Source: an uncultured Rhodopila sp. (lineage in GTDB: Bacteria > Pseudomonadota > Alphaproteobacteria > Acetobacterales > Acetobacteraceae). From it: a stretch of DNA of 64,000 nt. The translations under genes were made by a program, and so were the position numbers. Location: contig CAIZFE010000055.1 in the NCBI GenBank assembly GCA_903932145.1, positions 62,001-126,000 on the forward strand, written 5' to 3'. Below are positions 108-6,538 of the stretch, piece after piece (positions within the stretch are counted from its first letter, which is position 1; each line of letters starts with the position of its first letter). Under the pieces are notes generated by a model, which made no database searches, was not told the DNA's origin, and saw nothing but the letters and a program-made list of their open reading frames with translations.

Positions 108-178
108 AGCCAACCTTTCCACCCGTCTCGACGTCGCGGGAATTGTCGAAACCGCACAGGTTCGTTATCCCTCACTGC

Positions 179-724
179 ATGTCCGAAACGCGCCCCAATC
201 CCACTGTGTTCGACCTGTTCGCCGGTTTCTTCATGGTGGGTGTCTGCGGCTTCGGCGGCGTCCTGCCCTGGGCCAGACGCATGATCGTCGATCAGCGAAA
301 ATGGCTCACCCCCATCGAGTTCACCGAGATGCTCGGTTTGTGCCAGTTCCTGCCTGGTGGCAACATCATGAATGTCACCATCGCGCTGGGTTCGCGGTTT
401 CGCGGCATACCGGGCGCTTTGGCCTGCTTCCTGGGATTGATGACCGCTCCGGTGGCGATCGTGATCATGCTGGGTGCGATCTACGACCAATACGCCGGTT
501 ACGCGCCGGTGCGCCGAGCGTTCGTCGCATTGTCGGCAGCCGCCGCCGCGTATCTTGTCGCGAACGCCTGGAAGATCGCCTCGCCACTCTGGGGGCGTAA
601 GCTCGCGATGGCCATCGCAGCCTGCACCTTTGTGGCGATCGCCGTGCTGCGCTTGCCGATGCTGGTCGTGATGCCGGTGCTGGCCATCGGCTCAACCTTT
701 GTGCTGTGGCGGTTCCGGGCATGA
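179..724 (+). CDS. Chromate transporter, first CHR half
   Basis: This 181-residue membrane protein is one CHR domain of the ChrA family, which exports chromate or acts in anion transport. The start of the domain is recognisable: FAGFFMVGVCGFGGVLPWARR near residues 10-30, followed by EFTEMLGLCQFLPGGN, the usual CHR 'F..L..CQ..PGP/GGN' region. Several hydrophobic helices fill the rest. The ATG at 179 is preferred over one 36 bases upstream because family similarity begins right after it. Its stop overlaps the ATG of the next gene (ATGA), so the two are translationally coupled. Single-domain CHR proteins normally work as pairs, which fits here. The substrate is inferred from the family only. Confidence 0.85.
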   Translation: MSETRPNPTVFDLFAGFFMVGVCGFGGVLPWARRMIVDQRKWLTPIEFTEMLGLCQFLPGGNIMNVTIALGSRFRGIPGALACFLGLMTAPVAIVIMLGAIYDQYAGYAPVRRAFVALSAAAAAYLVANAWKIASPLWGRKLAMAIAACTFVAIAVLRLPMLVVMPVLAIGSTFVLWRFRA

Positions 725-1320: not shown

Positions 1321-2085
1321 ATGCAGGGCGACACCACACTGAATGTTTTCTGGCAGCCTGGCTGAACAAGCTGCCTGAAACTCAAAGAGTTTCTCTCGGT
1401 CCGTGCGATCGAGTTCAATTCCATCAATGTTCTGACCGACGCCGCCGGGCTAAATGAACTGCGTCGTCTGGGTGCCCGCTCCGTTCCCGTGTTGTCACGC
1501 GGTGACGATTGGATCTTCGCGCAGAATATCGGCCACGTCGTCAAATTCCTCGGTTTGAATGAGGCGACCGGCCCGGTGCTTTCCCCCGTCCAATTGATGG
1601 AGCGGATGGACCTGTTCGTGCGCACAGCGATCCAGATCGTGCCGCAAATGCCGGATTCGCTGCTGCTGACCGAAGTGCCCAATCGCCCGCGCAGCTATCT
1701 GGCGCTGGCGCATCATCTGTTCCGGATTCCGGAAGGCATGATGGAGGTCGCGCGTGGCGCTCTACTGGTGAACGACATGCTGACGGGTGGCCCGCCGGCC
1801 GGCATGACGAGCAGCGCCAGCCTTGGCGTTTATGGTCAGCAGGTTCTGGCGGAGTTGCACGCATGGTGGGACCCGAAAGCCGACAAATCCGGCACGGAAA
1901 CCGTGCAAACCTACTATGGCCCGCAGCAACTGCATGAACTGATGGAGCGAATGACCTGGCATTGCGGCCAGCATGTACGTCAATGGTTCATGCTGCTGGG
2001 CATGGCGGGACTCACGCCTGCTGTTACGTTAGACGACGCCGCGTTCGCGGGTCTGCCGATGCCCACCAACGTCTGGGACGGCTAA
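1321..2085 (+). CDS. Glutaredoxin/DinB-like fusion with in-frame UGA (candidate selenoprotein)
   Basis: An ATG at 1321 lies 9 bases after AGGAG (1308-1311 region), with a possible weak promoter before it (TTGACG at 1270, TAACCG at 1293). The frame reads MQGDTTLNVFWQPG, then TGA at 1363-1365, then TSCLKLKEFLS, and stays open to 2085 (254 residues counting the UGA). Residues 6-85 match the glutaredoxin-like family whose members read WQPGCTSCL, so the UGA sits exactly on the first, catalytic Cys of the CxxC pair. LGARSVPVLSRGDDWIFAQ is the cis-Pro region. Residues 95-254 resemble a DinB-type four-helix bundle with HxxxH-like motifs (LAHHLF, WHCGQHVRQ). Either UGA is read as selenocysteine or this is a recent nonsense mutation or read error. 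The intact 240 codons downstream favour a functional or very young allele. A start inside the frame (1489 or later) would drop the redox site. Confidence 0.7.
1377..1393 (+). promoter_or_regulatory. Stem-loop just downstream of the in-frame UGA (possible SECIS-like element)
   Basis: GAAACTC, AAA, GAGTTTC forms a perfect 7-bp stem with a 3-base loop. It starts 11 bases after the UGA and its loop lies about 19 bases after it, within the distance range of bacterial SECIS hairpins. The AAA loop lacks the G usually found in the apical loop unless the closing C-G pair opens, so the match to the known consensus is incomplete. Confidence 0.35.
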
Positions 2086-4196: not shown

Positions 4197-4700
4197 TCAG
4201 ACGATTTCCATTGCCAGTTTCGGCGGCGATTTCAATGTCTGCAAGATCACGCAATACCGTTCCGTCGTCTGGATCATCCGTTCCAACTTCGCCGGGTCCG
4301 CATCGCAATCGACGTCGAATTTCACCGTAATCTCAGTCAGTCCGACCGGCGCGGCCCGGTCGATCGCCAGCGTGCCGCGCGCGTCCCAGATCCCCTCGGC
4401 GATCACTTTGCCACCACGGATGGTGACGCCCATCGCCGTCGCCACAGCGCGTAACGTGACGCCGGCACAACCCACCAGCGCCTCCAGCAGCATGTCGGCG
4501 GAGCACGCCAGTTCGCCCGACCCGCCGCCGGCCTTGTGCAGTCCGGCGGTCACCGTGCCGTGCCAGGAATTGACCACGATCGCGATGTCGTTCGGGTCCA
4601 GACTGCCCTCGGCGTGGGCGGGAATGCGGGCGGCGTCGGGGTTGTCGCGGTAGAGTTGCTTCAGCGGCGCCTGAATGGCGCGAAGTTCGTCGACGTTCAT
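4197..4700 (-). CDS. OsmC/Ohr-family protein
   Basis: The protein has 167 residues. OsmC-family proteins are thiol-dependent peroxidases that reduce organic hydroperoxides. The two redox cysteines of the family are recognisable as Cys78 (LLEALVGCAG) and Cys150 (TERYCVILQTL), with an extra Cys66. The central beta-rich core (IVVNSWHGTV, GLTEITVKFDVD) fits the fold. It lies 11 bases downstream of the lactonase-like gene and is probably the last gene of a three-gene unit with that gene and the LLM oxidoreductase. The substrate cannot be told from sequence. Confidence 0.85.
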   Translation of the reverse strand: MNVDELRAIQAPLKQLYRDNPDAARIPAHAEGSLDPNDIAIVVNSWHGTVTAGLHKAGGGSGELACSADMLLEALVGCAGVTLRAVATAMGVTIRGGKVIAEGIWDARGTLAIDRAAPVGLTEITVKFDVDCDADPAKLERMIQTTERYCVILQTLKSPPKLAMEIV

Positions 4701-4711
4701 TTGGGAAATCC

Positions 4712-5506
4712 TTATTGCACGGGCGGCACGTCAAGGCGGCAGACAATGCCTTGTAGCTCAGGTGAGGGCGCCGGATAACGCTGCATCACCAGCGGATCGT
4801 GTCCCGGAACGATCAGTTCCGGTGCGGCGGCATGGGCGCGTAACGTATCGAACGCCTCCAGCATCTCGCCTATGTGAAGAGCGGTGGTGAACGGCCGATA
4901 CGTCTCCATATTCTCATAGAAATGGGTGACATCGGAGGCGAGCACAACGACCCCTCGCTTTGTATTCACCTTCACGAATTGCAGTCCCGCCGAGTGCCCT
5001 CCGGTCGGCACCAGGCTGATCCCCGGCAGCACGTCGGCGGGACCGTTATGATACTGCACGCGGCCATCAAAATTCAGCCGCACGATGCCGCAGACGTCGT
5101 CCGGTTCGAAACTGCGCGCAAGCTGCCGGTGCCGCATGTAGCGGCCGGTGGCGTATTGCATCTCCGGTTCCTGCAAATGAAACCGGGCTTTTGGAAACTT
5201 ATGAAAATTACCGACATGATCGTAGTGCATGTGGGTCAGGATCACGTCTTCCACCGTCGCTGGATCGACACCCAGTAACGCCAACGAATCAATCGGACAC
5301 CGTTCCAGAGTCCGCCCGCGCTTGCCGCCGCTTTCGGCGGTAAAGCCGATATCGATCACCACCGCTCGGTCTTTGTTCTTCGCCAGCCACACGAAGTAAT
5401 CCATCGGCATCGGCCCGTCGTGCGGGTCGCCGCCGATGAAATGCTCATGCCGCTGCGCTTTGCGTGTGGCGTAACGAAGGGCGAACAACTCGTATTCGTC
5501 GGTCAT
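4712..5506 (-). CDS. Metallo-beta-lactamase-fold hydrolase, N-acyl homoserine lactonase-like
   Basis: The protein has 264 residues and the zinc-binding HxHxDH motif (HMHYDH, residues 92-97), with later metal-ligand candidates in PTGGHSAG (about 170), LASDVTH and VPGHD. The order matches the AttM/AiiA-like lactonase subfamily, which opens lactone rings, but many members act on other esters or lactones. The neighbours (flavin oxidoreductase upstream by 3 bases, OsmC downstream by 11) suggest a small-molecule catabolism unit rather than quorum quenching. I see no LuxR or LuxI nearby. Confidence 0.85.
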   Translation of the reverse strand: MTDEYELFALRYATRKAQRHEHFIGGDPHDGPMPMDYFVWLAKNKDRAVVIDIGFTAESGGKRGRTLERCPIDSLALLGVDPATVEDVILTHMHYDHVGNFHKFPKARFHLQEPEMQYATGRYMRHRQLARSFEPDDVCGIVRLNFDGRVQYHNGPADVLPGISLVPTGGHSAGLQFVKVNTKRGVVVLASDVTHFYENMETYRPFTTALHIGEMLEAFDTLRAHAAAPELIVPGHDPLVMQRYPAPSPELQGIVCRLDVPPVQ

Positions 5507-5509
5507 AGC

Positions 5510-6538
5510 TTAGACAATCTCCTGATGGGCGGTGATATCGGGCATCACATGCCGGGTGAACAAATCGATCGAGTGCAGCGCTTCGTCGCCGGTAATGTCA
5601 CCGAACGCGAAACGGCACAGCAGGTAGTTCAGGCCGGCGTCATCGATGGTTTGCTGCAGGAAATCCCGCACCTTATCCGGGGTGCCGGCGATGGCGCGCC
5701 CCTGGGCCTCGGCGTCCTCGTATTGTTCCGGAAAGATGGCAGCCGGGGCGGGCATTTCCCCGTTCTCCAGCCACAGCTTCAGGAAGCTGGCGCGCCATTT
5801 GGCGTAGCCGCGTTTGGCAATCTCCAACGCCTCTTTCTCGGTGTCGGCAACGACCACATGGCGCCCGACGCCCATCAACGGCAGATCGGCGGGATCGTTG
5901 CCCAATGCATCCCATTCCGCTCGGTAACGATCGGTCAGCACCCGCATCGGCGCGCCGGGCAAATTGCCAACGATGTTGATCCGGTTCTTCGCTGTCCAGG
6001 GCACAGCCTCTGCGCGAGCCAGGCCGTACCATAGGGGCGGATGCGGCGTCTGGAACGGCGTCATTTCCATCGGCACATTTTTGAACGTGTAGTATTCGCC
6101 CTCGAAATTCAGAACGGAGTTGGTCATGCCGCGTAGAATGACTTCCAGCGCCTCGGCATACATCGCCTGCGTCTTGTTCGGGTCCAGTCCGTAGAACCGC
6201 ATCTCGATGGGAGAAATCCCGCGCCCGACACCCAACTGGAACCGCCCGCCGCTCATTTGATCCAGCATGCAGATCTCTTCCAGCAGCTTGATCGGATGAT
6301 ACAGCGGCAGAAGATAGACCAGCGGCCCGAACCGGAGCTGTTTCGTGCGTTGTGCAACCGCCGATAGCCAGATGCCGGGGCACGGTGCGACACCCAGCGG
6401 CGTCGCATGGTGCTCCGCCACATGATACGCGTAGAACCCGGCCCGGTCGTATGCCTCGACCAGCTTCAACCGCTCTTCGTAGAAACGGTCGAGCGGTGTC
6501 AGGCCGCGATCCATATGGTCGAAGATGCCGAGTTTCAT
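5510..6538 (-). CDS. LLM-class flavin-dependent oxidoreductase
   Basis: The protein has 342 residues of the luciferase-like monooxygenase fold (FMNH2 or F420 dependent). Recognisable segments are the N-terminal MKLGIFDHMD, YHVAEHH near residue 40, RFGPLVYLLPLYHPI near 70-85 and the family signature GRFQLGVGRGISPIEM near 100-115. Its C-terminus ends 3 bases before the lactonase-like gene. Its ATG overlaps the stop of a small remnant reading frame (ATGA). Oxygenative cleavage followed by lactone hydrolysis would be a reasonable two-step job, but the substrate is unknown. Confidence 0.9.
   Translation of the reverse strand: MKLGIFDHMDRGLTPLDRFYEERLKLVEAYDRAGFYAYHVAEHHATPLGVAPCPGIWLSAVAQRTKQLRFGPLVYLLPLYHPIKLLEEICMLDQMSGGRFQLGVGRGISPIEMRFYGLDPNKTQAMYAEALEVILRGMTNSVLNFEGEYYTFKNVPMEMTPFQTPHPPLWYGLARAEAVPWTAKNRINIVGNLPGAPMRVLTDRYRAEWDALGNDPADLPLMGVGRHVVVADTEKEALEIAKRGYAKWRASFLKLWLENGEMPAPAAIFPEQYEDAEAQGRAIAGTPDKVRDFLQQTIDDAGLNYLLCRFAFGDITGDEALHSIDLFTRHVMPDITAHQEIV

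Follow-up and report, generated by a model that had tools for sequence, protein, structure and literature searches.

A probable selenocysteine codon in a glutaredoxin–DinB fusion gene of an uncultured Rhodopila and its alphaproteobacterial relatives

The gene and its interrupted reading frame

The window analysed here is a stretch of 64,000 nucleotides from an uncultured Rhodopila sp. (contig CAIZFE010000055.1), whose 6.66 Mb genome is estimated by computation to be 100% complete and 0.13% contaminated. Two chromate transporter genes lie near its 5' end and are followed on the forward strand by a gene that starts with ATG at 1321, runs for 14 codons into an in-frame TGA (1363-1365), continues for 239 sense codons and ends with TAA at 2083-2085. 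The features of the locus are as follows.

143..724, forward strand: chromate transporter half-protein (PF02417); context, also found 5' of the gene in loci L002 and L103
721..1245, forward strand: chromate transporter half-protein (PF02417); context, likewise 5' of the gene in L002 and L103
1307..1311, forward strand: AGGAG, putative ribosome-binding site seen in the sequence, 9 bases 5' of ATG 1321
1321..2085, forward strand: selenoprotein gene, predicted 254 residues with Sec15; glutaredoxin and DinB/S-transferase-like domains
1363..1365, forward strand: in-frame TGA taken as selenocysteine (Sec) codon, position 1 of UTSC (CxxC); 40 loci with TGA vs 25 relatives with TGC/TGT
1377..1393, forward strand: hairpin of the initial annotation, loop AAA, which may assist; complete in 28/39 Sec genes and 0/25 Cys genes
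1397..1411, forward strand: preferred SECIS hairpin (candidate), stem 1397-1401/1407-1411, loop CGTGC at 1402-1406; the consensus fold extends to 1395-1413

The initial annotation had described the AGGAG motif, the start codon, the 14 codons, the single UGA and the flanking residues WQPG-U-TSCL, all of which are seen in the sequence. The frame 3' of the UGA is open as claimed, except that the 240 codons counted there include the stop. In our reading the apparent stop is very probably a Sec codon, and we infer that Sec is incorporated in the cell. We rate the gene as a new selenoprotein architecture based on a known redoxin.

The TGA codon in relatives and the selenocysteine machinery

The codon was read in loci from several sets of genomes: 40 loci yielded 23 TGA and 17 TGC/TGT, another 23 loci yielded 15 TGA and 8 TGC/TGT, and two further loci both carry TGA. 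TGA therefore occupies the exact same codon in 40 loci, 38 of which were placed by alignment (L010 and L075 represent one sequence within the 40), while L008 and L039 were left out because their matches stop short of the codon. In all 25 non-TGA relatives whose codon was read, the counterpart is Cys, as the initial annotation had assumed for the family. A conserved in-frame UGA with Cys at the same site elsewhere, as expected for a bacterial selenoprotein, is hence found here.

The underlying searches differed in reach. A scan of genome contigs returned 10 loci, of which the nine that cover the codon all have TGA. Protein searches (E <= 0.001) gave matches in 20/200 and 41/397 family genomes and in 21/398 phylum genomes, a good part of them short glutaredoxin matches. 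A profile search of class genomes (E <= 1e-20) matched 32 of 385; single-TGA rows came from the window genome and 18 others, and stop-free rows only from 13 genomes. Weak stop-bearing matches in G122, G173 (one TGA and three TAA) and G521 (one TGA), with E values of 6e-5 to 8e-4, were not counted as relatives. The same applies to a second, broken fusion copy in G676 (C182:10914-11653), whose pieces contain two TGA and one TAG; an intact Cys copy lies elsewhere in that genome.

An ordinary Cys glutaredoxin fusion could have received the TGA through a sequencing error or a recent nonsense mutation, the competing explanation named in the initial annotation; this would take little, as TGA is one base away from TGC/TGT and Cys relatives exist. 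Yet 40 loci share this TGA, and they come from several alphaproteobacterial families and many assemblies, with the frame intact and synonymous constraint 3' of the TGA. The lowest identity listed for a TGA relative is 54% (G337, from another family). Cys in near-identical strains, combined with frame decay here, would have spoken for such a mutation, and alignment of the close homologues gave the opposite picture: near relatives whose codon was read have TGA, not Cys, and the frame is intact on both sides. Since one and the same codon would have to be hit in some 40 loci, we reject error or mutation as almost certainly wrong.

A second alternative takes the UGA as a true stop, which would end a 14-codon leader peptide that regulates a separate, downstream-starting DinB protein. 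Databases present the protein in this way: the best 120 of 1985 matches to the Sec query measure 197-236 aa and all begin after the TGA, and in the window GTG 1489 opens a frame of 198 aa. A start at GTG 1489 would, however, remove the catalytic site together with the first strand of the glutaredoxin domain, and the Cys relatives are translated straight through. The best 120 of 1066 matches to a Cys-relative query are 250-315 aa long, with precomputed PF00462 and often PF12867 assignments, and the length difference indicates that the Sec form is annotated with its N-terminus missing, at least among the matches listed. Upstream of the TGA the codons vary and the residues FWxP stay; Pro is kept in 29/29 distinct sequences by means of three codons. 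Both sides of the TGA thus appear to be under constraint at the protein level. Moreover, the confinement of the hairpin to TGA genes and the co-occurrence with selA (see below) fit recoding, and a leader peptide is very improbable. TGA recurrence and Cys relatives together served to rule out leader peptide, base error and nonsense mutation alike.

Decoding of the UGA as Sec finds the required machinery in the window genome, which the initial annotation had proposed to search for selA, selB, selC and selD. Matches to selA (554.8 bits), selB (409.5 bits) and selD (300.4 bits) each lie above cut-off, and so does a tRNA-Sec (71.8 bits) with anticodon UCA, located 22 bases 3' of the selA match (L023). 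The complete set expected in the genome of a Sec-decoding bacterium is therefore present. ARAGORN, applied to eight loci, found the UCA anticodon in L023 only, and the second tRNA-Sec match above cut-off (L024) is a tRNA-Ser. The selD match (L020, G000:C86:269266-270138) covers 302 profile positions inside a 706-aa open frame and may be fused to another domain.

Beyond this genome, selA tracks the TGA form: it is above cut-off in 38/40 TGA-form genomes vs 4/32 genomes without that form (Fisher test, 1.7e-13, kinship ignored). The former count is composed of 19/19, 4/5 and 17/18, where G337 occurs in two of the sets but is counted once, and G599 and G666, which share selA coordinates, are merged; the latter is composed of 1/7, 0/12 and 3/13, and the selA listing threshold was 1e-60 for the 4/5, 17/18, 0/12 and 3/13 sets. 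The 32 genomes comprise 24 in which the codon was read as Cys and eight (G774, G720, G1025, G1061, G936, G1098, G867, G1126) known by a stop-free match in which the codon itself is unread. Two TGA-form genomes yielded no selA: G759 (estimated completeness 100%) and G808 (77%). A member of the window's genus, G156, has selA and no fusion match, which implies that Sec has other uses. G036, G846, G847 and G969 carry only the form without TGA and still have selA, their Sec machinery probably being kept by other selenoproteins.

Readthrough with an amino acid other than Sec, by a near-cognate or suppressor tRNA, would likewise yield a full-length protein. The presence of tRNA-Sec (UCA), selA, selB and selD, the association of selA with the TGA form and the invariable Cys counterpart argue against it, and we hold this explanation to be highly improbable. 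The replacement of the catalytic Cys by Sec, which the initial annotation had recognized as a selenoprotein pattern, is accordingly supported by TGA recurrence, Cys counterparts and Sec machinery.

Both forms occur in one genome, G1071 (L119 with Cys, L157 with TGA), forming a natural Sec/Cys pair. On a tree of 62 rows the Sec/Cys label requires two changes, one of which depends on the very long branch of L079; the root is the midpoint and the direction of change is thus not fixed by the tree. The gene at L010, recorded as Nitrosovibrio sp. Nv4 MAG, is identical to that at L075 (G666, from the window's genus) and the selA coordinates are also shared, so the betaproteobacterial label seems to stem from misnaming or mis-binning of the assembly.

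Candidate SECIS hairpins

The hairpin that the initial annotation had placed at SECIS distance (1377-1393, GAAACTC-AAA-GAGTTTC) is present and perfect, and its AAA loop does lack the usual G. This hairpin is complete only in part of the Sec genes, and the better candidate at 1397-1411 possesses a G in its loop. The latter starts 36 nt 3' of the UGA, and the usual SECIS distance has an upper limit of about 37 nt from the UGA. Its five-pair core (1397-1401/1407-1411) is found in 39/39 Sec genes and 0/25 Cys genes; when codons were randomised synonymously, all five pairs arose in 12.5% of 78,000 cases. Synonymous codon identity over codons +11 to +16 is 0.947 in the Sec genes vs 0.617 in the Cys genes, and 0.478 vs 0.601 over codons +17 to +59.

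A consensus fold of 36 distinct sequences, each covering 60 bases from the UGA, contains one hairpin, window 1395-1413, that is, the second hairpin only. The core forms in 36/36 of these sequences, three of which have C-G for U-A at one pair, while others change one side. Paired cells amount to 85.7%, above 500/500 shuffles and every slide of the partner register. Covariation, in contrast, is weak: shuffles equal the observed score in 233/500 cases (both hairpins scored together), and two-sided changes are more frequent in a register shifted by +1 (10 cells vs 3). The stronger argument for a SECIS element is the difference between Sec and Cys genes.

The loop CGUG is nearly invariant. Bacterial SECIS loops contain G (PMC1088965). 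A hairpin just 3' of the UGA with a G in a small apical loop is thus offered by 1397-1411 (loop CGUGC), which on sequence grounds appears to be the better SECIS candidate. Alternatively, Sec insertion is correct and the working element is 1377-1393, or both hairpins jointly. The upstream hairpin is closer to the UGA, its complete form is restricted to Sec genes, and by eye a shifted stem seems feasible in some of the sequences where it is broken. Nevertheless, 11/39 Sec genes break the stem as drawn, for which reason 1377-1393 was discarded as the sole SECIS, and the consensus fold with its conserved loop retains only the second hairpin. We regard a decisive or joint role of 1377-1393 as unlikely and prefer 1397-1411.

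Domains, related systems and possible function

The initial annotation had called the protein a glutaredoxin-like fusion. The glutaredoxin part (about residues 4-80) stands: PF00462 scores 31.1 bits with TGA read as Cys vs 21.0 bits for the part after the TGA (cut-off 22.9), and the predicted fold is of the glutaredoxin/NrdH type with CxxC where helix 1 begins. The C-terminal part (about residues 85-240) is now assigned to a DinB/S-transferase-like domain by its predicted four-helix DinB fold. The window protein scores 18.3 bits with Pfam DinB_2, under the cut-off of 24.8, and 43 of the 58 family members in the alignment match that model (E <= 0.01; best 5.9e-12). H132, H214, H218 and H205 are invariant in 58 alignment rows, and the first three, of which H214 and H218 have HxxxH spacing, probably bind a metal.

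We propose that the ribosome would decode UGA 1363-1365 as Sec with tRNA-Sec and SelB, guided by the intragenic hairpin 1397-1411. Sec15 would be the attacking residue of the glutaredoxin-fold domain (U-T-S-C18) and might react with a disulfide, a glutathionylated thiol or a thiol adduct, to be resolved by Cys18. In the DinB-type helical domain, a metal held by H132, H214 and H218 could activate a small thiol, perhaps glutathione. The DinB site would then perform a thiol-transfer step by giving or taking the metal-bound thiol, and the Sec/Cys redoxin would resolve or supply the mixed (seleno)disulfide. This coupled model is put forward tentatively, in its present form as rather less likely than not, together with the metal, thiol, reaction and substrate that it assumes.

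Several known systems resemble parts of this architecture. One counterpart is the Cys form of the fusion, found in Belnapia, Falsiroseomonas, Roseococcus and others, where databases call it a DinB family or a glutaredoxin domain-containing protein. It shares both domains, the length and the CxxC site and is 33-41% identical to the window protein, yet has TGC/TGT for TGA, is devoid of the conserved hairpin and mostly occurs without selA. Sec-glutaredoxin (Grx, PF00462, UxxC) has the glutaredoxin fold and Sec as the leading residue of UxxC in common with the window protein and is given as experimentally verified in Table 1 of a 2026 inventory covering 119 families of prokaryotic selenoproteins, which also includes UXX-star forms (PMC13188914). 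The window protein adds a DinB-type domain, and in the consulted parts of that inventory the fusion appears neither in Table 1 nor among the 119 families. UXX-star selenoproteins and the HUGP/GUXX-star fusion (NCBIfam) share a small glutaredoxin-like domain with Sec, but the window protein scores far under the cut-offs of the UXX-star-type models (27.9/66, 19.0/100, 20.1/97 and 17.6/325 bits). For the second domain, the close known systems are the DinB/S-transferase-like (STL) thiol transferases BstA-H, mycothiol S-transferase (8f5v) and mycothiol-dependent maleylpyruvate isomerase (2nsf). The consulted portions of PMC9312934, PMC12013277 and PMC5029168 list no DinB-fusion selenoprotein, and the matches listed from open-licence main texts included no paper on a glutaredoxin/DinB selenoprotein, nor on a selenoprotein of such kind in Acetobacteraceae or Rhodopila.

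More broadly, it is possible, if rather doubtful, that the gene represents a widespread alphaproteobacterial selenoprotein family absent from the inventories examined, in which one and the same chain would combine Sec with a metal-thiol transferase site to form a Sec-dependent S-transferase-like enzyme. In some genomes the Sec machinery may even be maintained mainly or solely for this selenoprotein. The last idea arises because the best formate dehydrogenase match of the window genome is a Cys form and a second site of the hairpin type was not found. The best match to TIGR01591 (FdhA) has TGC at the Cys/Sec position, and neither the 16/16 TIGR01591 matches listed nor the best selD match contain an internal stop. 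A search of the window genome with RNA model R1 returned its own site (87.1 bits, used to build R1) and one 14-bit match only. A 2006 survey (PMC1794560) recognized no selenoprotein but FdhA in the Sec-decoding Alphaproteobacteria that it covered, and the glutaredoxin-DinB family would add another use of selenium in this class. It also adds a selenoprotein architecture that annotation shortens in all of the best 120 of 1985 Sec-query matches. Given natural Sec/Cys pairs, a two-form genome and a compact conserved SECIS candidate, the reasons for keeping or losing selenium at a single active site become directly testable.

The gene neighbourhood suggests catabolic or detoxifying settings and nothing further. 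Neighbour genes were taken from an ORF caller without a gene model, and antisense frames were also clustered. No neighbour is common to all loci compared; the neighbours vary by lineage, and the substrate can therefore not be read from context. Hydantoinase A lies directly 5' of the gene in seven loci (L003-L007, L009, L011), an isochorismatase-domain hydrolase lies 5' of it in 9/17 family-level Cys loci, and six Sec loci have an OsmC-type gene in the vicinity (PF02566, 64.6 bits for the copy in the window). Downstream in the window, the reverse strand (4197-6538) carries this OsmC-like gene, a metallo-beta-lactamase-fold gene and a luciferase-like monooxygenase. Upstream of the gene in L103 (G636:C36), chromate transporters 1 and 2, hydantoinase B, hydantoinase A and an HpcH/HpaI-type gene precede the selenoprotein in this order, possibly the fuller arrangement of which other loci retain parts.
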